64,000 nt of DNA from a virus: the IMG/VR virus record IMGVR_UViG_3300023178_000030, positions 1 to 64,000 of that record; one strand, written 5' to 3'. Under the pieces are notes generated by a model that ran no database searches, was not told the origin of the DNA, and was given only the letters and a program-made list of their open reading frames with translations. Position 1 is the stretch's first letter. Each line of letters opens with the position of its first letter. Positions 10,552-63,533 of the stretch are shown piece after piece. Made by a program: the position numbers and the translations under genes.

Positions 10552-10580
10552 TTGACAAAACACAATTAATACTATATAAT
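10552..10580 (+). promoter_or_regulatory. Sigma70-like promoter giving a probable leaderless mRNA
   Basis: TTGACA 10552-10557, a 17-bp spacer and TATAAT 10575-10580. The next start codon, ATG 10589, begins 9 bases after the -10, essentially at the expected transcription start. No ribosome-binding site can fit. Confidence 0.82.
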
Positions 10581-10588
10581 GGTTCTAT

Positions 10589-11737
10589 ATGAAATATAAT
10601 CCTTACACATTACAAGATGTTATCAAAGCATCTTCACAAAACAAATTTTCTGTAATATCAACATTCGCTGGTGGTGGTGGCAGTTCTACTGGCTATCGTC
10701 TTGCAGGTGGTAATATACTTTGCATGAATGAATTTGTTGAAGAAGCTCAAAACACTTATAGAGAAAATTACCCTAACACTCCGATCTTACCTGGTGATAT
10801 TAAAAAATTATCAGGTAAAGATTTTCTTGACATTGCAAAACTTGATGTTGGTGAATTAGATATTCTAGATGGTTCACCTCCATGTTCTGCATTTAGTGTT
10901 GCAGGTAAATTATCTCATAGTAAAGATGGTAAACATAGTGATGGTTGGGGTCAAACTAAAAATTATTCTGACGGTAAGATGGTAGAAAATATCGAAGATT
11001 TATTTTTTGAATTTCTACGAGTGGCTGATGAAATAAAACCAAAAGTTATTATTGCAGAAAATGTTGCAGGTCTTACTGTCGGTGAAGCAAAAACATATTT
11101 CAATAAGATACAGAATACATTTGAAGATATAGGTTATGATGTATGTGCAAAAGTTTTAGACAGTCGTTACTTTGGTGTATCACAAACAAGAACAAGAGTA
11201 TTCTTTATTGGTTTACGAAATGATATTACAACAAAAGCTGGATTAACATTTATGAATATTGCAAATGTATTTCCTGAAGAAAGTAGAGATATTGTTTCGT
11301 TAGAAGAAGCTTTAAAAGATTTAGAGTATGATTCTGAAGAAGTAAAGATGTTAACAGACAGATTTTCAAATACTGCATACTGGAAACAAACTGGTAGTAA
11401 AATGCCAAACAATCCAGACAAAGTTTTGACAGGTGGTGACTATCATCCTAAAGGACATCACTTTAATCTTAAGAGAGTTTCTCTAAAACAACCAGGTCCA
11501 ACATTAACTGCAATGGGTTCACAGATTACAACAGCAGGTGCTTTCCACTGGAACGAACCTAGAAAGTTAACAATAGGTGAATTGAAAAGAATACAATCAT
11601 TACCAGATGATTTTATTTTAACAGGTAAGTGGAATCAAAAAGCAGAACGCATTGGAAGAATGGTACCACCATTACTTCTAAAATCAATTGCAGATTCCGT
11701 TTATGAAAAAGTTATTAAGGAGTATAAGAATGGCTGA
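10589..11737 (+). CDS. C5-cytosine DNA methyltransferase
   Basis: The enzyme transfers a methyl group from SAM to cytosine in DNA. Motif I is FAGGGGSSTGYRLAGG. Motif IV DGSPPCSAFS carries the catalytic PC. Motif VI reads IIAENVAG (ENV) and motif VIII SQTRTRVFF (QxRxR). Motifs IX/X near the C-terminus include RIGRMVPPLLLKSIA. At 382 aa it is a complete Dcm-type enzyme. It follows the DUF262-HNH and PP-loop genes, so it may mark phage DNA against that nuclease. Its mRNA appears leaderless. The target site is unknown. Confidence 0.95.
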   Translation: MKYNPYTLQDVIKASSQNKFSVISTFAGGGGSSTGYRLAGGNILCMNEFVEEAQNTYRENYPNTPILPGDIKKLSGKDFLDIAKLDVGELDILDGSPPCSAFSVAGKLSHSKDGKHSDGWGQTKNYSDGKMVENIEDLFFEFLRVADEIKPKVIIAENVAGLTVGEAKTYFNKIQNTFEDIGYDVCAKVLDSRYFGVSQTRTRVFFIGLRNDITTKAGLTFMNIANVFPEESRDIVSLEEALKDLEYDSEEVKMLTDRFSNTAYWKQTGSKMPNNPDKVLTGGDYHPKGHHFNLKRVSLKQPGPTLTAMGSQITTAGAFHWNEPRKLTIGELKRIQSLPDDFILTGKWNQKAERIGRMVPPLLLKSIADSVYEKVIKEYKNG

Positions 11738-29300: not shown

Positions 29301-29329
29301 TTGACAAAGATACACATTTAATGTATAAT
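29301..29329 (+). promoter_or_regulatory. Sigma70-like promoter giving a probable leaderless mRNA
   Basis: TTGACA 29301-29306, a 17-bp spacer and TATAAT 29324-29329. The primase ATG at 29337 begins 8 bases after the -10, at the expected transcription start. Confidence 0.82.
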
Positions 29330-29336
29330 TGTGTTT

Positions 29337-30356
29337 ATGAATTTTGTAGACATAAAATACATTTCTTTACTTTCCCCTAGACTAGAAAAATTTCAGAAGA
29401 AAGATAACTTTCTCTGGAACTTTAGGTGTCCTTATTGTGGTGATTCAAAGAAAAATAGAAATAAAGCTAGAGGTTTTGTTTATAGAACAAAAGCAGATTT
29501 GTTTTATAAATGTCATAACTGTTCTGTAGGTGCATCATTCTCTAATCTATTAAAGTATGTAGATACAAACTTACATAAAGAGTACATATTAGAGAAATAT
29601 AAAGAGGGCCAGACATCAAAAGGTAGAGGTAGTAAGAGTAATGTTACAGTACCTAATCCTAAATTTGATTTCAAACCACCTGTTTTCAAAACAAGACTAG
29701 GTAATCTAAAAACATTTGCAGAATTAGACAAGAAACACCCAGCTGTACAATATTTGTTTAAGAGAAAACTTCCTAGAGATTCTTGGAATGATATATATTA
29801 CTGTTCTAAATTTTTTGAGTTTTCCAACACGATAGTTGAGAACAAATTCCCTACTTTGAAAGGTGACCACCCAAGAATACTGATACCATTCAGAAATAAG
29901 AATGGTCAGATATTTGGTTATCAAGGTAGGTGTTTTGGGAAAGAAACTCAAAAATATATTACGATTATTTTCAATAATTCGTATCAAAAACTGTTTGGTG
30001 TCGATAGATTAAATACTAGTAAAACAATTTACATAGTAGAAGGCCCCTTTGACAGTCTATTCATAGATAACTGTATCGCAGTTGCACAAAGCGATTTACA
30101 AGTTACTAAATACAAAAACAAGTCTGTGTTAATTCCAGACAACGAACCTAGAAATAGAGAAATCTGTAAACAGATTGAAAAATATATTTCTAATAAGTAT
30201 AGTGTCGTTATATGGCCTAGAGATGTAAAAGAAAAAGATATAAATGATATGATTCTTTCAGGTATGACAAAAGAAGAATTACAACTTATAATACAACAAA
30301 ATACATATTCTGGTTTAACTGCACTTACAGAATTCAATAAGTGGAAAAAAGTTTAG
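29337..30356 (+). CDS. gp61: gp61-like DNA primase
   Basis: This enzyme makes RNA primers at the fork with gp41. The CHC2-type zinc finger is clear: FRCPYCGDSKKNRNKARGF then YKCHNC. The TOPRIM region includes IYIVEGPFDSLFIDN and VLIPDNEPRNREI, both matching T4 gp61. At 339 aa it equals the family length. ATG 29337 is preferred to GTG 29331 because the latter would precede the expected transcription start. No ribosome-binding site can be present on such an mRNA. Confidence 0.95.
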   Translation: MNFVDIKYISLLSPRLEKFQKKDNFLWNFRCPYCGDSKKNRNKARGFVYRTKADLFYKCHNCSVGASFSNLLKYVDTNLHKEYILEKYKEGQTSKGRGSKSNVTVPNPKFDFKPPVFKTRLGNLKTFAELDKKHPAVQYLFKRKLPRDSWNDIYYCSKFFEFSNTIVENKFPTLKGDHPRILIPFRNKNGQIFGYQGRCFGKETQKYITIIFNNSYQKLFGVDRLNTSKTIYIVEGPFDSLFIDNCIAVAQSDLQVTKYKNKSVLIPDNEPRNREICKQIEKYISNKYSVVIWPRDVKEKDINDMILSGMTKEELQLIIQQNTYSGLTALTEFNKWKKV

Positions 30357-38534: not shown

Positions 38535-38587
38535 AAGGGTCAGTCTTTCTTTTCTCTCTCAACTCTCTCTATATGAGATTGACCCTT
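38535..38587 (+). other. Hairpin with long pyrimidine-rich loop
   Basis: AAGGGTCAGTCT (38535-38546) pairs with AGATTGACCCTT (38576-38587): 12 pairs with one G-U. The 29-nt loop is nearly all C and U (CTCTCTC twice). No good T-run follows, so it is a poor terminator. It may be a processing site or an RNA that pairs with GGAGAG-type ribosome-binding sites. Confidence 0.5.
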
Positions 38588-38609
38588 CCTTTACTCTTTA
38601 GGTGATAAT

Positions 38610-41596: not shown

Positions 41597-41885
41597 TTCA
41601 GAAACAAAAGAAACATTTGAAGACTTTCTATCAATATCTACTAAAGACGAATTGTTAGAAAAGAATCCACACATAAAACAATTACCAACATCTTTTGGTA
41701 TTGTATCAGGTGTGGGTACAATACAAGGTAAAACTTCCCAAGGATTTAAAGAAGTCTTATCTAAAATATCAGAAGCACATCCTGATAGTCCACTTGCACA
41801 ATCACATGGTACTAATAAAAGTATTAAAGATATAAAAACTCAAGCAGTTTTAAACAAACATAGAAAGAAATGGAAGAATCAATAA
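41574..41885 (+). CDS. FmdB-like fold protein without cysteines (103 aa)
   Basis: MPTYKFYDSETKETFEDFLSIS is the start of FmdB-type regulatory zinc ribbons, but the cysteine knuckles are missing. The C-terminal GFKEVLSKISEAHPDSPLAQ is conserved in marine T4-like relatives as I remember them. An AAGGAAAAA site precedes the ATG. A complex hairpin begins one base after the stop. Confidence 0.65.
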   Translation: MPTYKFYDSETKETFEDFLSISTKDELLEKNPHIKQLPTSFGIVSGVGTIQGKTSQGFKEVLSKISEAHPDSPLAQSHGTNKSIKDIKTQAVLNKHRKKWKNQ

Positions 41886-41973
41886 CAGAGAGGACAATCG
41901 AGATTTACTTCAGCACCCTCAACTAGAGAAAGTAAGCTGTGAAGCCTCTCCGATTATGTCCTCTCTCTTTTTT
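41886..41973 (+). ncRNA. Long structured RNA element ending in a T-run
   Basis: GAGAGGACA (41888-41896) pairs with TGTCCTCTC (41957-41965). After a small internal loop, TC/GA and GAGA/TCTC (41900-41903 with 41947-41950) extend the rod. CTT/AAG and CAGC/GCTG (41908-41914 with 41936-41944, with a TG bulge) close a 21-nt loop. A run of T follows at 41968-41973. It is far more elaborate than other terminators here and may be a stable small RNA as well as a terminator before phoH. Confidence 0.65.
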
Positions 41974-41991
41974 AAAGGAAGTATAATATAA

Positions 41992-55685: not shown

Positions 55686-55754
55686 AAGTCCTTGATTTTA
55701 AAAGAAACTTTTTTTGGCATATGTGTTGACATAGTGTGTTTGTTTTGATAACAT
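55686..55754 (+). promoter_or_regulatory. Sigma70-like promoter with conserved upstream box (copy 4)
   Basis: AAGTCCTTGATTTTAAA begins at 55686. TTGACA lies at 55726-55731 and, after 17 bp, an extended -10 TGA then TAACAT at 55749-55754. The box-to-minus-35 distance is 40 bp. An ATG at 55762 lies at the predicted transcription start. Confidence 0.8.
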
Positions 55755-55788
55755 AGCTATAATGATTAACAAAACACAGGAAAACAAA

Positions 55789-56797: not shown

Positions 56798-56826
56798 TTG
56801 ACAAACAATAATTTTTATGATAATAT
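56798..56826 (+). promoter_or_regulatory. Sigma70-like promoter giving a near-leaderless mRNA
   Basis: TTGACA 56798-56803, a 17-bp spacer, and an extended -10 TGA then TAATAT 56821-56826. The ATG at 56836 begins 10 bases after the -10, leaving at most a 2-3 nt leader. It overlaps the SleB stop. Confidence 0.78.
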
Positions 56827-56835
56827 TTCTGTGTT

Positions 56836-57195
56836 ATGAGTAAACGAATTAATAAAAAACATTATATTGATGACTGGAGAGAAAATAATAAGTTTCTCAA
56901 AAGATTAAATTTATCAAAGATTACTTTAGAAGAATATATAGATGAAAGACACGGTAAAGGTAAATACAAACCTAGAGTGTTAGATACTTTTACAGTAACA
57001 AAGAGTTATGTTAGGACAACAGAACATATTCCTAGTTTATCAATGTCTACTAGAGGTGATTGTTCTAAAAGAGATAATTCTGAAAAACTCAAAGTTAGTA
57101 GTAAATATATAATAGGTCAGGCTTATAATAAAGGTGGGTTTCAAGTGTTGACTGATTTTGAATCAAAAGACCCACAAACAGGAAAGAGAAGATAA
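56836..57195 (+). CDS. Hypothetical protein (119 aa), near-leaderless
   Basis: The basic protein opens MSKRINKKHYIDDWRENNKF and contains VLDTFTVTKSYVRTTEHIPS and GQAYNKGGFQVLTDFES. It resembles uncharacterised proteins of marine T4-like phages next to the coiled-coil membrane gene. No ribosome-binding site fits between promoter and ATG. The stop is followed at once by the TTG start of the next gene. Confidence 0.65.
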   Translation: MSKRINKKHYIDDWRENNKFLKRLNLSKITLEEYIDERHGKGKYKPRVLDTFTVTKSYVRTTEHIPSLSMSTRGDCSKRDNSEKLKVSSKYIIGQAYNKGGFQVLTDFESKDPQTGKRR

Positions 57196-58041
57196 TTGTT
57201 TTTTGCGTTTATTACATTAATTATTGCGATTAGTATTAGTGCAGTTGCGGCTTACTATTCTATTATAGGTTTAGTTGCAATTTTTTCAAGTGCAGTATTA
57301 CCAGTTGCAATCATGGGCATAGTGTTAGAAGCAGGTAAGTTAGTTACTGCATCATGGTTATATCAAAATTGGAAACGAATAAATTTTGTTATCAAAACAT
57401 ATCTAACATTTGCAGTAGTAGTATTGATGTTCATTACATCTATGGGTATCTTTGGTTTTTTATCTAAAGCTCATATAGACCAAACATTGACAAGTGATAC
57501 ATCAAATATCGAAATCGAAAGAATCGAATCATTAATCACAATAGAAAATAGGAGAATTGAAAATGCTCAAAAAAATCTTGACAACCTTGAACGGCTGGTG
57601 GAAAACCTGTCAGCAGAAGATGCTGCTTATACTCGCAGAATTCAAAGACGAGAACGAAGTGCAATTGACAAAACCATCAAAGAAGCCAGTCAGAAAATCT
57701 CGAACTACAAAGAAGAAATCATCCCCTACAAAAAAGAAGCAGTCAAGCTCGAGGCGGAAGTCGGCCCGATAAAATATATTTCTGAACTAATTTATGATAA
57801 CTCTAACTCTGAACTATTAGAAGATGCAGTTAGGGTTGTCATAATTATTTTAGTATTTGTATTTGATCCACTTGCAGTTGTATTACTCATTGCGGCTAAT
57901 ATGTCATTTCAACAAGAGAAGTTGCGAAGAAAAAGAAAACGACAAGCTCAAATCAAGAAAGAACTACCTCAAAAGAAAAAGGGTGAAATGGTAAAAGTTA
58001 CCAGAGAACTCAATGGTGTTTCAACCACTACTTACGAATAA
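57196..58041 (+). CDS. Multi-span membrane protein with coiled-coil domain
   Basis: The start is TTG 57196, directly after the previous stop, with GGAAAGAGAAG upstream. Membrane spans occupy the first 90 residues (FAFITLIIAISISAVAAYY, AIFSSAVLPVAIMGIVL, LTFAVVVLMFITSMGIFGFL). A coiled coil follows (about residues 105-200), then span VVIIILVFVFDPLAVVLLI and a basic tail. It is a common marine-phage membrane protein of unknown role. Its coiled-coil codons at 57563-57772 also encode a second protein in another frame. Confidence 0.75.
   Translation: MFFAFITLIIAISISAVAAYYSIIGLVAIFSSAVLPVAIMGIVLEAGKLVTASWLYQNWKRINFVIKTYLTFAVVVLMFITSMGIFGFLSKAHIDQTLTSDTSNIEIERIESLITIENRRIENAQKNLDNLERLVENLSAEDAAYTRRIQRRERSAIDKTIKEASQKISNYKEEIIPYKKEAVKLEAEVGPIKYISELIYDNSNSELLEDAVRVVIIILVFVFDPLAVVLLIAANMSFQQEKLRRKRKRQAQIKKELPQKKKGEMVKVTRELNGVSTTTYE
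57563..57772 (+). CDS. Nested gene for a very basic small protein (69 aa)
   Basis: AGGAG at 57550-57554 lies 8 bp before ATG 57563, in a different frame from the enclosing membrane-protein gene. The product starts MLKKILTTLNGWWKTCQQKM and ends in a Lys/Ser/Arg/Thr-rich tail (KPSKKPVRKSRTTKKKS and on). Local G+C rises to about 44% (75 of 170 bases at 57601-57770), against about 33% just after, as expected if two frames constrain the DNA. It probably binds nucleic acid. Confidence 0.65.
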   Translation: MLKKILTTLNGWWKTCQQKMLLILAEFKDENEVQLTKPSKKPVRKSRTTKKKSSPTKKKQSSSRRKSAR

Positions 58042-58126
58042 TTACAAACTCATTACAATAAAATCACTTTTTATTTTTTTGTAATATTTTCGTGTTAAAT
58101 AATATGTGTAATGTGAAGGAGAAATT

Positions 58127-58711
58127 ATGAAACATTTATTATTAATATTTTTTATGTTATTTTCATTACCAGTTTTTGCAGATGATAGAAACTGGGAAAA
58201 GTCAGAACATAATATAAACATTAAACACAATAACTTTGGTCTTAACATTCGTCAGTATGCACAAGATGATTATGACCATATTCAATTTGAATACAATGTA
58301 GTCAAGAGTGTGAAACTTGCATTAAGACTTGCAGAAGAAGGTGAAATCAAAGAAAAAAGACCAAGTATCACTCATACTGTTGGTAAGTTTGGGCCTATAA
58401 AAGTTGCACATAGATTAGGTTATAGAATGTATGAGAGTGATTTAAAATCTGATTTTGCAAGATATAGAATCATACTTGGTGCGAACTATGGTATGTTTTG
58501 GACTAAAGTACAACCAAGATGGAAAGTTGGTGGTGAAGGTGTTCATGTAGATGCAAAAATAGATGACATTAAATCTTCAGTTGGTATCAAACTAAACTTG
58601 AATGAACATACAACATTTAAACCATATGTTGAATATCTTGCAGATGGTGAATTAAATGATTATAAGAAAAAATATGTGATGTTGGGTACTGAACTAACAT
58701 TTAAATTTTAG
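58127..58711 (+). CDS. Secreted outer-membrane beta-barrel-like protein
   Basis: A classical signal peptide (MKHLLLIFFMLFSLPVFA, cleavage before DDRN) is followed by alternating amphipathic strands (VKLALRLAEEGEIKEKRPSITHTV, IKVAHRLGYRMYES, ARYRIILGANYGMFWTKVQP) and a terminal aromatic strand ending LTFKF. This fits a small outer-membrane barrel of about eight strands. A phage-made barrel could block re-adsorption or remodel permeability. AAGGAG precedes the ATG. Confidence 0.7.
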   Translation: MKHLLLIFFMLFSLPVFADDRNWEKSEHNINIKHNNFGLNIRQYAQDDYDHIQFEYNVVKSVKLALRLAEEGEIKEKRPSITHTVGKFGPIKVAHRLGYRMYESDLKSDFARYRIILGANYGMFWTKVQPRWKVGGEGVHVDAKIDDIKSSVGIKLNLNEHTTFKPYVEYLADGELNDYKKKYVMLGTELTFKF

Positions 58712-58824
58712 TGAAACCAGAAATTAAAAAATTGATAAGACAAATAATTTTTGAAATAATATTGCCAGTAGCATTACTTATTTGGTTTATGTTATGGTTA
58801 TTAGGGCCAGTAGGAAAAGGTTAA
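58711..58824 (+). CDS. Small membrane peptide (37 aa, GTG start)
   Basis: GTG 58711 directly follows the stop of the barrel gene. The product has a basic helix (KPEIKKLIRQIIFE) and one membrane span (IILPVALLIWFMLWLLGPVG). Its stop overlaps the next ATG (TAATG), supporting coupled expression. No strong ribosome-binding site is seen. Confidence 0.55.
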   Translation: MKPEIKKLIRQIIFEIILPVALLIWFMLWLLGPVGKG

Positions 58825-59126
58825 TGTATAGTACATTAAGAGAAACATTACAAGAGAGATATGGAGATAATAGGAGACTTTATCTCCAAGCTCTCTATCT
58901 TAATGTTGAAGTTGGCCCATATACACCAGACCCTGTCGAGGGAATGTATGCATTAGAAAATTACAAGTATGGTAATTTAGAATTTGATGAAGCTATTTCA
59001 CACATAAACAAAAACAGAAAAAAGACATTCGATTTACAACAATACAATGATGACTGGCAAGAATATTTAAATTTATGTGAAAAGGAAATATTAGATGAAA
59101 AAGATAATAGAGAAAATAAAACTTAA
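58824..59126 (+). CDS. Hypothetical protein (100 aa)
   Basis: The real start is ATG 58824, overlapping the previous stop, with AGGAAAAGG upstream; a longer frame from 58782 lies inside the small membrane gene. The product has LRETLQERYGDNRRLYLQALYLN and YTPDPVEGMYALENYKYGNLEF, an acidic helical protein. Its end overlaps the 28-aa reading frame that starts at 59095. Confidence 0.65.
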   Translation: MYSTLRETLQERYGDNRRLYLQALYLNVEVGPYTPDPVEGMYALENYKYGNLEFDEAISHINKNRKKTFDLQQYNDDWQEYLNLCEKEILDEKDNRENKT

Positions 59127-59181
59127 ATTCAAATACAAATCTACTATGTGGGTGAAACCATATTTTGAAGATTGTTTATAA
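59095..59181 (+). CDS. Short reading frame ending in a PqqA-like N-terminal motif (28 aa)
   Basis: ATG 59095 has AAGGAAA 8-10 bp upstream. The product MKKIIEKIKLKFKYKST is followed by MWVKPYFEDCL and stop. Those last 11 residues look like the first half of a PqqA peptide (MWxKPxFxD). The half that would carry the conserved Glu and Tyr is missing. It lies 53 bp from the true pqqA stop on the opposite strand. It may be a relic or chance. Confidence 0.35.
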   Translation: MKKIIEKIKLKFKYKSTMWVKPYFEDCL

Positions 59182-59186
59182 ACAAA

Positions 59187-59220
59187 AAAAGGGAGTATAA
59201 AAACTCCCTTTTCTTTTTCT
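59187..59220 (+). terminator. Intrinsic terminator
   Basis: AAAAGGGAGT (59187-59196) pairs with ACTCCCTTTT (59203-59212) around ATAAAA, followed by CTTTTTCT. The minus-strand side also has a long T-run (from AACAAAAAAA), so the same hairpin can end the leftward pqqA transcript. Confidence 0.9.
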
Positions 59221-59234
59221 ATTTGAAATAAAAT

Positions 59235-59306
59235 TTACTTGTTTGCAATGTACATTGTAACTTCAAAACCAAATCTCATTTCAGTATATTCTGGTGACTT
59301 CCACAT
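59235..59306 (-). CDS. pqqA: PqqA, PQQ precursor peptide (23 aa)
   Basis: On the minus strand, ATG 59306-59304 follows AAGGAG with 8-bp spacing and ends at TAA 59235-59237. The 23-residue product starts MWKSPEYTEMRF and contains GFEVTMY. It has Glu at 15 and Tyr at 19, the positions cross-linked to form pyrroloquinoline quinone in the 23-residue Klebsiella PqqA. Length, MW start, Pro5 and the EVTxY core all agree. No pqqBCDE genes are in the window, so host enzymes would have to process it. A terminator lies just downstream on both strands. Confidence 0.88.
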   Translation of the reverse strand: MWKSPEYTEMRFGFEVTMYIANK

Positions 59307-59398
59307 AATACTTCTCCTTAATAATTATTAACACTAATATATATAATAAACACAAAAAAATCACATAGTGATAATCATTAAAATCAAGTGAGAAAATC
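59307..59398. other. Intergenic region between pqqA and the divergent 59399 gene
   Basis: Very A/T-rich. It holds the pqqA ribosome-binding site on the minus strand. I see no consensus sigma70 or late promoter in either direction; ATATATATAATAAAC is the only -10-like material. Confidence 0.4.
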
Positions 59399-59632
59399 AT
59401 GAAAAAAGAAGATGCTAAAATAATCTTACTAAAAGATGTTATTGAAACAAAACTACGAAAAGAAAAAGAATTAGATTACTATCAAAAACAACTTGAAGAG
59501 CTTCAGATGAAAATGGTGTTTCTAAAAAAAGATATTCATTTAACTAACACTATTATTAATATTATCGAAAGTGAAAATATTATGCAATTAGAACCTTTAA
59601 TACTTGACAAAAACATAAGAGATGAGTTATAA
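59399..59632 (+). CDS. Coiled-coil hypothetical protein (77 aa)
   Basis: Charged heptads run through ETKLRKEKELDYYQKQLEEL and QMKMVFLKKDIHLTNTIINI. GTGAGAAAATC precedes the ATG, with weak ribosome-binding character. Its last codons carry the promoter at 59604-59633, so its transcript leads into the structured element downstream. No family is recognised. Confidence 0.6.
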   Translation: MKKEDAKIILLKDVIETKLRKEKELDYYQKQLEELQMKMVFLKKDIHLTNTIINIIESENIMQLEPLILDKNIRDEL

Positions 59633-59633
59633 T
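59604..59633 (+). promoter_or_regulatory. Sigma70-like promoter for a structured leader RNA
   Basis: TTGACA 59604-59609, an 18-bp spacer and TATAAT 59628-59633, overlapping the stop of the preceding gene. Transcription should start near 59640, about 15 nt before the structured element. Confidence 0.8.
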
Positions 59634-59654
59634 TACTGTTCTTTCTTAAAATAA

Positions 59655-59729
59655 AAGAGTATGTAAGGCGCTAGTATTCGTGATGAAGTTGAGTCTGGAT
59701 TCAGGTGCTAGGTCTTACATATTCCTCTT
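59655..59729 (+). ncRNA. Structured 75-nt RNA element in the leader of the 59736 gene
   Basis: TATGTAAG (59660-59667) pairs with CTTACATA (59714-59721). After a TTC bulge, AAGAG (59655-59659) pairs with CTCTT (59725-59729). Inside, CTAGTA (59671-59676) pairs with TGCTAG (59706-59711) and TGAGT/ATTCA (59690-59694 with 59699-59703) closes a CTGG loop. The element ends 6 bases before ATG 59736, which has no ribosome-binding site of its own. It could be a cis-regulatory element or a processed small RNA. Tested as tRNA and rejected. Confidence 0.65.
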
Positions 59730-59735
59730 ACGATT

Positions 59736-59984
59736 ATGAAAAAATATATCCATGTAGACACAATCAAAATCAGAACTAACATCAAAAAGAAAAAGTTAGA
59801 CCCTAACTATGAGGTTGAGCCTGTTGTTATTGTTAGAACTAAAAGTAAAGTATTAGAGAAATGTCATGAGGTCGAAATACTAGGCCCAAGTAAAGTTGTA
59901 TATGCAGAAGGTGGTGAGAAAATACTGAACTGTGGTGCAAGAACTGTAATTGAAACAGAAAGTGAAATAAAGGTGATAAGATGA
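59736..59984 (+). CDS. Conserved marine-phage protein (82 aa)
   Basis: KYIHVDTIKIRTNIKKKK, then CHEVEILGPSKVVYAEGGEK and NCGARTVIETESEI, is a small beta-rich family frequent in marine T4-like phages. Function unknown. The gene is expressed from a strong promoter through the structured leader and lacks a normal ribosome-binding site, so its translation may be RNA-controlled. It overlaps the next gene by 4 bp. Confidence 0.65.
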   Translation: MKKYIHVDTIKIRTNIKKKKLDPNYEVEPVVIVRTKSKVLEKCHEVEILGPSKVVYAEGGEKILNCGARTVIETESEIKVIR

Positions 59985-60712
59985 TGTTTAATTTAAATAA
60001 AACAATTGAAGTCCATTGTTATACATGGAGAAAAATAAATGCAGAAGAATTTTGTATTAAAGAGATGAAACCACATAGACCAAAATGGTTTAGAGATATG
60101 GGAAAAATGACTGGAACTAAATGGAATCTTCCAAAGTTAAATATAAAACATTGTCATGGTATTCTTGAATTATTTAAAAGAAGTTTTTATCTTCCTTTAT
60201 GGACTGACTTATATATTATTAATGAAATGCATGATATAAATGCTATATCGAAAGATTCTTACCTGATAGTTTCAAAACATTTTGATAAAGCTAATTCACA
60301 AGCTCCAACTTTATCAGAAAAACACAGAAATCTTAAAATAGATGCTCCTTGGATTTTTGATTGTGATAAAGATATTAATTTTTATATTACTGGTGCATCA
60401 TGGGATTATATAAACAACGACTTATTTTATAATTTTCATTTACCTCCAGCTATACTCGATTTTAAGTATCAATCATGTCTTAATACACAATGGTTATTTC
60501 CAATACCATTTACAAAAGAACAAGAAACTTGTATAAGTTTTCAAGCAGGTGATCCATTATATTACATAACTCCATTAACAGATAAAAAAGTTAAATTTAT
60601 AAGTCATTGTATTACTAAAACAGAATTTTTTGATAAATTTGATAGTTTAGATCGTACTACTTCGTTTTGGTCAAATGCTTATGCAAGAGGAAAAAAACTA
60701 ATGGGTAAATGA
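59981..60712 (+). CDS. DUF6065-like protein, paralogue A
   Basis: It begins MMFNLNKTIEVHCYTWRKI and has RPKWFRDMG, YLPLWTDLYI, APWIFDCD and GASWDYINNDLF, then FQAGDPLYYITPLTDKKVKFISH. The protein at 61326 shares all of these in the same order and has the same length (243 aa). The fold resembles cupin-like DUF6065 proteins. It is coupled to an oxygenase gene by ATGA overlap, and the second copy follows that oxygenase. Substrate unknown. Confidence 0.7.
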   Translation: MMFNLNKTIEVHCYTWRKINAEEFCIKEMKPHRPKWFRDMGKMTGTKWNLPKLNIKHCHGILELFKRSFYLPLWTDLYIINEMHDINAISKDSYLIVSKHFDKANSQAPTLSEKHRNLKIDAPWIFDCDKDINFYITGASWDYINNDLFYNFHLPPAILDFKYQSCLNTQWLFPIPFTKEQETCISFQAGDPLYYITPLTDKKVKFISHCITKTEFFDKFDSLDRTTSFWSNAYARGKKLMGK

Positions 60713-61323
60713 TGGAACAAGTATTAGAGAATTTTTATACTGAAGATGAGATAGATAGAATTTGGAAAGAAATACAATATTTAGATTCTAATACTTATGG
60801 TTGGGCATATCCAAATCCACAAATAAATGCAGTTGATAAAAAAGGTAATCTACTATTACAAGGTGCAAGACAATTTAAGTTTAGTATATTTGGTTATAAT
60901 AACCTTGAACTGTTGAGAAAGTCTAACATTTATACTTCAGGTAAAAAACTTATGAATTACCATGATTATTTAGTTGGTAAACATGATATTTATAAAAATA
61001 TTAAGGAATTAGATCGTCATTTTTCTTTTTTAAATTACTACTATAAAGATGATGGTTGTTACAAATTACATCATGATATATCCATGTATACAATGTTATC
61101 GTATTTTTACGAAGAGCCTAAAAATTTTACAGGTGGTCAATGTCTTGTAGGAAATAACAAATATGAAATACATAATGGATTTACAATCGTGTTACCAGGC
61201 TGGTTAAAACATGGTTCAACACCAATAAAAATAATCGATAAATCTAGAAAAAAATCTGGAAGATATTCTATTGCACACTTTTTCTGGTCAGCAAACTCTA
61301 ACGATTTTGAGAGGAAATCATAA
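60709..61323 (+). CDS. 2-oxoglutarate/Fe(II) oxygenase flanked by paralogous genes
   Basis: CYKLHHDISMYTMLSYFYEE gives the HxD pair; LPGWLKHGSTPI gives the distal His; SGRYSIAHFFW provides the arginine for 2-oxoglutarate. At 204 aa. MEQVLENFYTEDEIDRIWKE is a typical opening of prolyl-hydroxylase-like phage enzymes. Its position between two DUF6065-like paralogues suggests a joint modification pathway. Overlaps paralogue A by 4 bp. Confidence 0.78.
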   Translation: MMEQVLENFYTEDEIDRIWKEIQYLDSNTYGWAYPNPQINAVDKKGNLLLQGARQFKFSIFGYNNLELLRKSNIYTSGKKLMNYHDYLVGKHDIYKNIKELDRHFSFLNYYYKDDGCYKLHHDISMYTMLSYFYEEPKNFTGGQCLVGNNKYEIHNGFTIVLPGWLKHGSTPIKIIDKSRKKSGRYSIAHFFWSANSNDFERKS

Positions 61324-61325
61324 AT

Positions 61326-62057
61326 ATGATGTTCAATTTTAATAAAACAGTTGAAATTCATTGTTACACATACAATAAATTTATTGCAGATAATTTTTGT
61401 GTACAAGAAATGAAAACTACAAGACCATCATGGTTTAAAAACTTACCTAAAAAATCTGAAAAAAAATCAACAATGAAAAGTTGTTATGGTTTTATAAATT
61501 TATTTAAAAAAGGATTTGTTCTCCCTTTTTGGAGTGATATTGAAATTACAAACACAATAGAAGAATTGGTTGTAAATTGTGCAAATCAAGATACAACTAA
61601 TGTTTTACATCACTTAAATCCAAATAATTCATCGGCTGAAACTTTATCAACATATCACCGTCATGCACAAATACAACCACCTTGGGTTTTTACATCTGAC
61701 AAACCTACTGAATTTGCAGTTGTAGGTGCTTCATGGGATTATATAAACAATAATCTATATGATTTTCATTTACCCACAGGTATTATTGATTTTAAATACA
61801 ACAATACAATTAATGTACAAATGTTGTTTCCTAAACCAACTGGAAATCAAAGACAATCAAATATAATTTTTAAAGCTGGCGATCCAATATTATATTTGAT
61901 TCCTTTAACTGAAAAGAAAGTTAAATTTATTACACATAATATTACTAGAATGGAATATTATGATATGATAGACAATGTAGATTCAAAGTCACATTTTTTT
62001 AGTAACAAATATGTTAGGTCTAGAACATATGGATATAAAGGATATATGAAGGAGTAA
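61326..62057 (+). CDS. DUF6065-like protein, paralogue B
   Basis: The opening MMFNFNKTVEIHCYTYNKF, then RPSWFKNLP, VLPFWSDIEI, PPWVFTSDK, GASWDYINNNLY and FKAGDPILYLIPLTEKKVKFITH mirrors paralogue A. Identity is moderate by eye, so the duplication is not recent. The ATG lies 2 bp after the oxygenase stop. Confidence 0.7.
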   Translation: MMFNFNKTVEIHCYTYNKFIADNFCVQEMKTTRPSWFKNLPKKSEKKSTMKSCYGFINLFKKGFVLPFWSDIEITNTIEELVVNCANQDTTNVLHHLNPNNSSAETLSTYHRHAQIQPPWVFTSDKPTEFAVVGASWDYINNNLYDFHLPTGIIDFKYNNTINVQMLFPKPTGNQRQSNIIFKAGDPILYLIPLTEKKVKFITHNITRMEYYDMIDNVDSKSHFFSNKYVRSRTYGYKGYMKE

Positions 62058-62059
62058 TT

Positions 62060-62305
62060 ATGACACCACAAGAATCAAATACCCTATATAGATTACATAC
62101 AGTAATAATGCAAGAGATCGAAAACTATCACTTTAGAGGTCAATATGACTATCATTTGAGAGTGAGAGTTGAAGATGATGAGATAAAATTTAGATATTTA
62201 AATGAGTGGCATCCTATATCAAAAGAAACACTATTTAAGATGTTAAAACAGAGTAACTTACCACAAAGTTTATATACTAAATTAATGTTAAGGATAGTAC
62301 AATGA
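62060..62305 (+). CDS. Hypothetical protein (81 aa)
   Basis: Residues RLHTVIMQEIENYHFRGQYDYHLRVRVEDDEIKFRYLNEW and a terminal helix (SLYTKLMLRIVQ) suggest a small alpha/beta fold. AAGGAG precedes the ATG, and it overlaps the cytochrome gene by 4 bp. No family is recognised. Confidence 0.6.
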   Translation: MTPQESNTLYRLHTVIMQEIENYHFRGQYDYHLRVRVEDDEIKFRYLNEWHPISKETLFKMLKQSNLPQSLYTKLMLRIVQ

Positions 62306-62622
62306 TTAAATTTATTTTAATGTTTTTATTTACATTCAATGTCTATGCAACAGATGAAGGTTACAAGATGTTGAAGAACAACAATTGTTTAGCTTGTCAT
62401 GCAGTTGATAAAACACTAGTAGGCCCATCATATCAAGATGTTGCGAAGAAATATGAGAATGACGATAGAAGTATTGTAGTACCTGTTCTTGCAAGAAAGA
62501 TGCGTGAAGGTGGAGTTGGTAATTGGGGAGTTATTCCTATGCCACCAATGAACTTAAGACATAATCAATCAGAGTATATAGTTAAGTGGATTTTGAATAG
62601 AGAGTGGGAAACTACTAAATAA
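62302..62622 (+). CDS. Periplasmic cytochrome c (c551-like)
   Basis: A signal peptide (KFILMFLFTFNVYA, cleavage before TDEG) is followed by the haem site CLACH at residues 29-33, the GPSYQDVAKKY segment and an axial methionine in IPMPPMN (M80 or M83). The end is a helix (EYIVKWILNR). This is the plan of small class I cytochromes of the c551/c552 type, which shuttle electrons in the periplasm, including from PQQ dehydrogenases. Haem attachment would need host Ccm enzymes. It overlaps the preceding gene by 4 bp. Confidence 0.92.
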   Translation: MIKFILMFLFTFNVYATDEGYKMLKNNNCLACHAVDKTLVGPSYQDVAKKYENDDRSIVVPVLARKMREGGVGNWGVIPMPPMNLRHNQSEYIVKWILNREWETTK

Positions 62623-62624
62623 AA

Positions 62625-62915
62625 ATGTATATAAACGATAGAAAGAATTATTATCACAATCGTTATCATAACAAAACATACTATAGAGATGCAGTACAAG
62701 GAGTTAGAGAGATGCCCGTTTCAAATGTTACTCAAGGTATCAATGCAGATATCTTAACAAACATGAAATCATCTAAAAATGTTTTATCAAAAGTAGATGA
62801 GGATAGAAAAGAAGCCGTAGAAAAATCAAAAGTTTATTTCAAGGAAGTGTTACAAACATCAACAGATATCAAAGATAATGTTGCAAAAGGTATTAATGTT
62901 GATGTGACTACATGA
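62625..62915 (+). CDS. Hypothetical protein with a repeated motif (96 aa)
   Basis: The N-terminus is Tyr/Asn/His-rich (INDRKNYYHNRYHNKTYYRD). Two similar segments, QGINADI and KGINVDV, flank a charged helix (VDEDRKEAVEKSKVYFKEVL). It follows the cytochrome gene by 2 bp and overlaps the next gene by 4 bp. No family is recognised. Confidence 0.6.
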   Translation: MYINDRKNYYHNRYHNKTYYRDAVQGVREMPVSNVTQGINADILTNMKSSKNVLSKVDEDRKEAVEKSKVYFKEVLQTSTDIKDNVAKGINVDVTT

Positions 62916-63109
62916 GAAGAAATGTTCACCATATTGCTTTTAATATTTGGTTATATTCTTTTGTGGTTTTATGTACTTTACCGATTACAATAGTTATCGT
63001 TTTGAATCTTCTAGAGTTGTACCTATGGTTGACAGACCGCCCTGCCTTGCCTTCTTTTCTGCATCCCATTGAAGTGATAAAGCAACTAGCTCAAAAATTA
63101 TCCACATAA
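62912..63109 (+). CDS. Small membrane protein, antisense-overlapping its neighbour
   Basis: The ATG overlaps the previous stop (ATGA). The product has hydrophobic spans (FNIWLYSFVVLCTLPITIVI, VLNLLELYLWL) and a proline-rich end. Its last 116 bp overlap the 3' end of the minus-strand gene, so both cannot be freely conserved there. The overlapped start and membrane character support it moderately. Confidence 0.5.
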   Translation: MRRNVHHIAFNIWLYSFVVLCTLPITIVIVLNLLELYLWLTDRPALPSFLHPIEVIKQLAQKLST

Positions 63110-63533
63110 CACCACCAACGAATAAAGATACAAGTACACCATCTCTGATTTGTTTTTTTCGTCTTAATTTTTTATAGACTTGTTCTTCTCTTTGTCGTTT
63201 TAATTTTCTTCGTAGTGCAATCATTTCTTCGTAAACTGTTCCACCATAACGCCACTTAATCATAGTTGCAAGATCAGCTTCCATTTGTTGTATTTTCTTT
63301 TTATGAACGATAATGTCTAACGCCTCTTGTTCAACAGACTTTGCAGCCATGAACTTTTTCATACTAGATGGATTTTCTCGTTCCTGTCTTGCATGATTGA
63401 AATCGGAGACTGCACTAAACCATTTACCGATTTGTCCTGTGACATCTTCGATATCTCTACCTGCATCAACTAATTTTTTGATACCATTAAATGCAGCTGT
63501 AGCCGCAGTAATGGCAGTAATTGGATCTATCAA
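62994..63533 (-). CDS. Conserved marine-phage protein with a C-terminal membrane span (179 aa)
   Basis: I chose TTG 63533 with AGAGG 8 bp upstream, giving IDPITAITAATAAFNGIKKLV after the start, the usual beginning of this family; a longer frame from TTG 63611 is less likely. KKFMAAKSVEQEALDIIVHKKKIQQME and the basic KLKRQREEQVYKKLRRKKQI precede a span (VLVSLFVGGVMWIIFELVAL). Function unknown. It is read from the minus strand and may use the late box at 63621-63628. Confidence 0.72.
   Translation of the reverse strand: MIDPITAITAATAAFNGIKKLVDAGRDIEDVTGQIGKWFSAVSDFNHARQERENPSSMKKFMAAKSVEQEALDIIVHKKKIQQMEADLATMIKWRYGGTVYEEMIALRRKLKRQREEQVYKKLRRKKQIRDGVLVSLFVGGVMWIIFELVALSLQWDAEKKARQGGLSTIGTTLEDSKR

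Follow-up and report, generated by a model that had tools for sequence, protein, structure and literature searches.

A predicted stable hairpin between a consensus promoter and a start codon without Shine-Dalgarno sequence at the head of a phage accessory operon

In phage f1, genes VII and IX are joined at a -4 spacing, and a long hairpin whose end lies close ahead of gene IX is opened by translational coupling, as described in passages of PMC12548453. The locus reported here resembles that arrangement, as far as those passages go, in the overlap of start and stop codons at a -4 spacing and in the long hairpin that ends just before the downstream start. It differs in that gene VII is a real upstream gene for which coupling was tested, whereas here the upstream frame is a putative 18-codon ORF that begins inside the hairpin (PMC12548453, in part). 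A broader likeness is to the phage T4 genes e, 38, 25 and 43, where mRNA structure near the start codon sets initiation (parts of PMC3014915). The same portions of that source (PMC3014915) bring out the differences: gene e has late promoters within its structure that act as its switch, while the late promoter TATAAATA, which has six exact copies on the + strand of the DNA analyzed here, has none in 59560-59743 and so none in the leader; the structures of genes 38 and 25 bring a Shine-Dalgarno (SD) sequence close to the start, and no clear SD sequence lies ahead of the present hairpin; the structure of gene 43 is a protein operator, and no binder is known for this leader. Methylophage Melnitz, which carries a relative of the 82-aa protein considered below, has a glutamine riboswitch, like this leader a structured cis RNA (PMC9004378, in part). 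Unlike that riboswitch, the leader matches no Rfam family, and a model of it finds nothing in the Melnitz-3 genome.

The DNA analyzed, hereafter the window, comprises positions 1 to 64,000 of IMG/VR record IMGVR_UViG_3300023178_000030. The features of interest are as follows.

59399-59632, + strand: 77-aa ORF upstream of the leader
59604-59633, + strand: sigma-70 promoter TTGACA-18-TATAAT (12/12 matches), overlapping the 3'-terminal part of the 77-aa ORF, stop codon included
59640-59735, + strand: predicted 5' leader of about 96 nt, its start placed 7 nt past the -10 hexamer
59655-59729, + strand: alternative fold of the preliminary description, AAGAG plus TATGTAAG pairing with CTTACATA plus a TTC bulge plus CTCTT, ending 6 nt before the ATG; 1.1 kcal/mol less stable
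59657-59724, + strand: long hairpin (13-bp stem, bulged G, CUAG/CUAG helix and a weak top)
59683-59739, + strand: possible leader ORF of 18 codons, starting in the hairpin top; GTG 59680 adds one codon
59736-59984, + strand: 82-aa protein, phrog_8676, function unknown; heads the operon and lacks an SD sequence
59981-60712, + strand: 243-aa protein, phrog_7084, whose start lies in an ATGA overlap with the 82-aa stop
60709-61323, + strand: 204-aa 2OG-Fe(II) oxygenase-like protein (weak match); start overlaps the preceding stop (ATGA)

The promoter is one of seven perfect-consensus promoters with 17- or 18-nt spacing in the window, all on the + strand, and the consensus promoter of the preliminary description is thus borne out. 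Only perfect matches carry weight, since near-consensus matches in the window are not enriched at 18-nt spacing (24 found against 31.7 expected) and somewhat enriched at 17-nt spacing (42 against 30.9). Among the seven, the leader is the longest: the -10 hexamer lies 102 nt from the ATG, against 7, 8, 28, 29, 29 and 35 nt at the remaining six. Elsewhere in the window, an ATG follows 7-9 nt after a promoter of perfect or near-perfect sequence at 10552-10589, 29301-29337, 55726-55762 and 56798-56836, a distance suggesting that these four genes (ATG 10589, 29337, 55762 and 56836) probably have leaderless mRNAs. A motif, AAGTCCTTGATTTTAAA ... CTTTTTT, is repeated just 5' of promoters at about 3021, 39022 and 55690 and looks like a decayed form of the terminator AAGCCCTTGATTTTCAAGGGCTTTTTTT close to 55640.

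Energy minimization of the leader (59640-59735) gave a single long hairpin at 59657-59724, with a free energy of -27.3 kcal/mol and about 21 near-continuous base pairs. In this optimum, GAGTATGTAAGGC is paired with GTCTTACATATTC, and the stem continues through the G bulge and CUAG/CUAG into a weak top; about 17 unpaired nt separate the 5' end of the leader from the stem. Folded alone, the hairpin reached -26.3 kcal/mol, versus -13.3 +/- 2.6 for shuffled sequences (z -5.1), and none of 3000 shuffles was as stable, a figure flattered by the choice of the hairpin bounds after folding. For the whole leader, z was -3.3 and 15 of 3000 shuffles were as stable. More stable 80-nt segments were rare (4 of 25,570 across the 64 kb, both strands) and fell at only two other places. 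With whole intergenic gaps of at least 50 nt, a softer control, the leader ranked 7th of 25 (z -2.4); several of the gaps ranking above it contain terminator-like hairpins, for example 59187-59212 and 41887-41974. The G+C content of the hairpin is 43%, versus 30% for the window, and 2.8% of 68-nt segments reach 43%. A very stable structure between the promoter and ATG 59736, as claimed in the preliminary description, is therefore confirmed. The 13-bp helix with a TTC bulge that it proposed is also present and near-optimal, but only as a suboptimal fold (-26.2 versus -27.3 kcal/mol). The two further helices said to lie inside that closing helix are absent from the suboptimal folds printed, and the optimum is one long hairpin. 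Two further intergenic hairpins, both long and with large loops, were seen at 38535-38588 and 41887-41974, the latter with a T-run at its end and a branched loop.

The hairpin ends 11 nt upstream of ATG 59736, a start that fits the family of the 82-aa protein because the alignment with a relative (L002), and with others, begins at the same residue. Its pairing to the anti-SD sequence (+2.4 kcal/mol) is the weakest of the 86 + strand starts scored, in agreement with the earlier statement that the gene has no ribosome-binding site. Opening the 30S footprint from -20 to +15 was computed to cost 14.6 kcal/mol, the highest value among 43 starts, and opening -11 to +15 costs 3.7 kcal/mol, which makes this stretch as open as at other starts. 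From these two costs it appears that the hairpin weighs on the upstream half of the ribosome footprint, with the start codon itself left open; as the start codon region is accessible, the hairpin need not block initiation. The suggestion that the fold could set access to the start is supported by the cost over the whole footprint, although the start codon region itself is no less open than elsewhere.

The possible leader ORF runs from ATG 59683 through the right arm of the hairpin to TGA 59737-59739, overlapping the gene start as ATGA. Its sole SD-like sequence, AAGG at 59665-59668, lies in the left arm, fully paired and 11-14 nt from the ORF starts, so that the ORF may be poorly translated. 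It could also be a chance frame. When the leader was shuffled with the same end and any of three start codons allowed, 17% of the shuffles carried a frame of at least 10 codons ending at the ATGA and 6.8% one of at least 19; in addition, two relatives contain an 11-codon ORF of like geometry inside a tRNA, where it is surely fortuitous. In view of these rates (about 7-17%) and these chance frames, the leader ORF is suggestive only.

Relatives of the 82-aa protein were collected by scanning IMG/VR with it, which yielded 102 relatives, of which 80 were kept. The leader is carried solely by the window and by one identical IMG/VR contig (L001) and is absent before 79 other family loci. L001 equals the window over all of its 6246 bases, and L144, from the same contig, is identical over 18,985 bases; from this identity L001 belongs to the same population as the window. 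The preliminary description had counted a leader that is not conserved as an argument against its reading, and as far as conservation can be tested, only the identical L001 has the leader. A covariance model of the leader (R1), in effect a single sequence that detects only close copies, matched L001 alone over 86 loci and nothing over 61 further loci. Outside these 86 + 61 loci are L081-L084, L140, L143, L144, L152, L153 and L157, which derive from the window's record or from the L001 contig. Over 15 records R1 matched only the window's own, over 4 records only that of L001, and over 36 sources the two identical copies plus one match at chance level (41877-41982, - strand, E 1.7). Exact 25- and 17-base patterns from the leader were found in viral contigs only in 3300020055_000060. 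A 17-base loop pattern occurred in that contig and in four others, these four having no R1 match, and an 18-base leader pattern searched in genome contigs hit two contigs of unrelated bacteria, again with no R1 match. DNA comparison with phage records found the leader plus gene nowhere, and for the leader alone gave matches at chance level; no description of the leader was found in the literature searched, a search that could not be aimed by phage name. With two known copies, both identical, there are no countable covarying pairs. Since the hairpin was found in one virus population only, the leader is a lineage-specific local arrangement and not a recognised or conserved RNA class; resting on a single sequence, it has no importance as such a class yet.

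A start could be called at 70 of the 80 family loci, and the other ten were excluded from the counts of upstream ORFs and SD sequences. Among the 70, an upstream ORF of at least 40 codons overlaps the family gene at 27, ends within 17 nt of it at 12, lies at 18-57 nt at 11 and is missing at 20; family starts are thus usually tied to an upstream ORF. The 20 loci comprise L001, ten with a short ORF, L066 and L073 (after tRNA-Ile), and seven others. At the ten short-ORF loci (L050, L051, L054, L058, L061, L065, L067, L069, L075 and L079) a near-constant frame of 27-28 codons, MKKLFKFLGWLEQQRINAMSQSGRGWG and variants, overlaps the family gene start and is possibly an unannotated small protein or leader peptide. 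No overlapping short ORF was seen at L005, L040, L041, L046 (cut by the contig end), L056, L057 and L068. In L066 (236-312) and L073 (2925-3001 and 3234) the family gene stands inside a tRNA array, with its ATG 1 nt past tRNA-Ile and a tRNA-Ser following the gene. A promoter-like site ends 8 nt before the family gene start at L003, L004, L009, L013 and L014. A leader conserved throughout the family was considered and rejected: L002, with 84% protein identity, has in its place an ORF of 257 codons that shares an ATGA overlap with the start. Nor is the absence of an SD sequence peculiar to the leader, pairing being weak in 30 of 53 distinct family start contexts (40 nt, the window's population included). 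These counts indicate that an SD-less start is a common family trait and that the family gene occurs in several 5' contexts, the hairpin leader among them.

The leader would head a phage accessory operon that includes the 82-aa gene, the 243-aa gene, the 2OG-Fe oxygenase gene and onward. Two paralogous 243-aa phrog_7084 genes, at 59981-60712 and 61326-62057 (67% DNA identity), flank the oxygenase-like gene, and a cytochrome c-like gene lies at 62302. In Melnitz-3 the 82-aa relative is followed directly by a gene annotated as a PKHD-type hydroxylase. The 82-aa protein itself has no Pfam family and no curated family above cut-off; across 30 members of its family the matches were weak, the best (E 0.026) to a DUF. 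Its predicted structure, a helix and a small sheet, has a mean pLDDT of 87.9, with the five models ranging from 46 to 88. It matched no solved fold by Foldseek (best E 1.6), and among predicted models it matched two viral ones without known function at E < 0.001.

PqqA has been reported in a phage population from Lake Baikal (PMC7678222, in part). The preliminary description placed the leader right next to a PqqA locus, and a 23-codon PqqA-like ORF, named so by eye, indeed lies at 59306-59235 on the - strand, 298 nt from the promoter and in another transcription unit. No tie between the two emerged, however, as a sister phage keeps PqqA without the leader. This phage (L155) shares 58041-59327, including the PqqA-like ORF, at 73-78% DNA identity, and 62723-63532 at another place, but its 8.5-kb locus has no detectable counterpart of the block 59328-62722 and its 32-kb record no match to the leader model. 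The leader is therefore part of an accessory block, and the PqqA-like ORF occurs independently of it. A second sister phage (L154) is shared with the window only to about 58710; a third (L145), 98.4% identical, ends at window position 57201 and is uninformative on the leader. The 82-aa protein was not found in the L154-L156 records, in a search that had no positive control.

Our favored reading, to which we give a probability of roughly 0.36, is that the hairpin tunes translation of the 82-aa gene, coupling to the short ORF being the likeliest way of opening it. Transcription from the strong host-type promoter would yield an mRNA whose leader folds into the long hairpin ending 11 nt from the SD-less start; because it falls within the 5' half of the 30S footprint, the hairpin would reduce free initiation at ATG 59736. 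Production of the 82-aa protein would then require the hairpin to be opened, most economically by a ribosome on the 18-codon ORF, which would pass through the right arm and stop at the ATGA on the start codon, so that coupling would combine unfolding with re-initiation. The coupling model calls for an upstream ORF whose stop overlaps the downstream start or comes very near it, and such an ORF is present (59683-59739, with a chance level of 7-17%). It also calls for a structure that hampers initiation and can be reached by the upstream ribosome, and computation provides one (14.6 kcal/mol, with the ORF crossing the right arm). Counted further in favor of this reading, the next two genes of the operon also start in ATGA overlaps, and family starts are mostly tied to an upstream ORF, including the short ORF of 27-28 codons at ten loci. 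The perfect promoter with its longest leader, the stability of the hairpin beyond chance, the weakest SD pairing of 86 starts and the f1 precedent count on the same side.

Other explanations must be weighed against coupling. The hairpin could be a 5' stabilizer or spacer devoid of regulation, the SD-less start being used directly through the open AU-rich stretch at the ATG. We regard this as somewhat unlikely, yet deserving of serious attention: the -11 to +15 region is indeed open (3.7 kcal/mol), the phage has other SD-less genes, four of them apparently leaderless (10589, 29337, 55762 and 56836), and five family loci have the promoter-like site 8 nt before the start. Against it, the stem ends 11 nt from the ATG, inside the usual 30S footprint, and a stabilizer could sit at the extreme 5' end, yet some 17 unpaired nt precede the stem. 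A processing site, at which RNase III or another nuclease would cut to leave a short mRNA starting near the ATG and translated like a leaderless message, is suggested by the 21 or so near-continuous pairs and by L066 and L073, where tRNA maturation would yield just such an end, the tRNA-Ile ending 1 nt before the ATG. In the leader, however, ARAGORN with its default settings found no tRNA gene, and at half threshold only an unassigned candidate of 28 points; Rfam to E 10 showed no tRNA family there. We consider processing improbable. Autoregulation through a protein-binding operator is known from T4 genes 32 and 43. Here too, a protein of the phage, conceivably the 82-aa one, could bind the hairpin and repress, and the position near the start is suitable, as with the gene 43 hairpin (PMC3014915, in part). 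But the 82-aa protein matches no solved fold and, above cut-off, no curated family, and its relatives do without the leader, which makes an operator distinctly improbable.

The remaining alternatives treat the leader as an RNA element in its own right. Rfam models run over the 64 kb gave no match at gathering scores, and up to E 10 only matches at chance level. The idea of a cis-regulatory RNA, raised in the preliminary description, is a reasonable reading as far as a cis-acting structure goes; as a class of regulatory RNA it finds no support. An orphan ligand- or protein-sensing cis-RNA that times the oxygenase operon in a phage with a PqqA-like gene, with a leader peptide begun in the hairpin loop as its readout, would be a long shot. 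The small RNA of the phage's own, likewise proposed there, left no sign, with neither an uninterrupted U-tract after the stem nor an Rfam family. The promoter is present, but no intrinsic terminator was found at the stem end, only TTCCTCTT, by a scan whose 3-8 nt loop limit would miss one with a large loop. An independent small RNA or attenuator, with a short transcript ending past the stem, could point to this TTCCTCTT (5 T of 8), but the tract is interrupted, unlike those of the terminator-like hairpins 59187-59212 and 41887-41974, the hairpin does not appear in the output of that scan (loops of 3-8 nt only), and Rfam holds no counterpart; its chances are very slim. Slimmer still are those of a small-molecule riboswitch or thermosensor of an undescribed class. 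That the leader is structured and the phage has metabolic genes brings to mind the glutamine riboswitch reported in a methylotroph phage (PMC9004378, in part), but the leader is a single long hairpin without a junction, has no Rfam match and lacks a second, diverged sequence. That the hairpin is nothing functional, a chance or selfish element in the accessory block, would accord with its confinement to one population and with the L155 locus, which lacks a counterpart of 59328-62722. This is hardly credible for a structure that none of 3000 shuffles equaled in stability and that is placed exactly between a perfect promoter and a start codon.

If coupling to the leader ORF is true, the hairpin would be a compact means of down-tuning an SD-less gene that stands behind a full-strength promoter. 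It would also show how one small gene family remains without an SD sequence even as overlapping ORFs, tRNAs, leaderless promoters and the hairpin leader replace one another in front of it.
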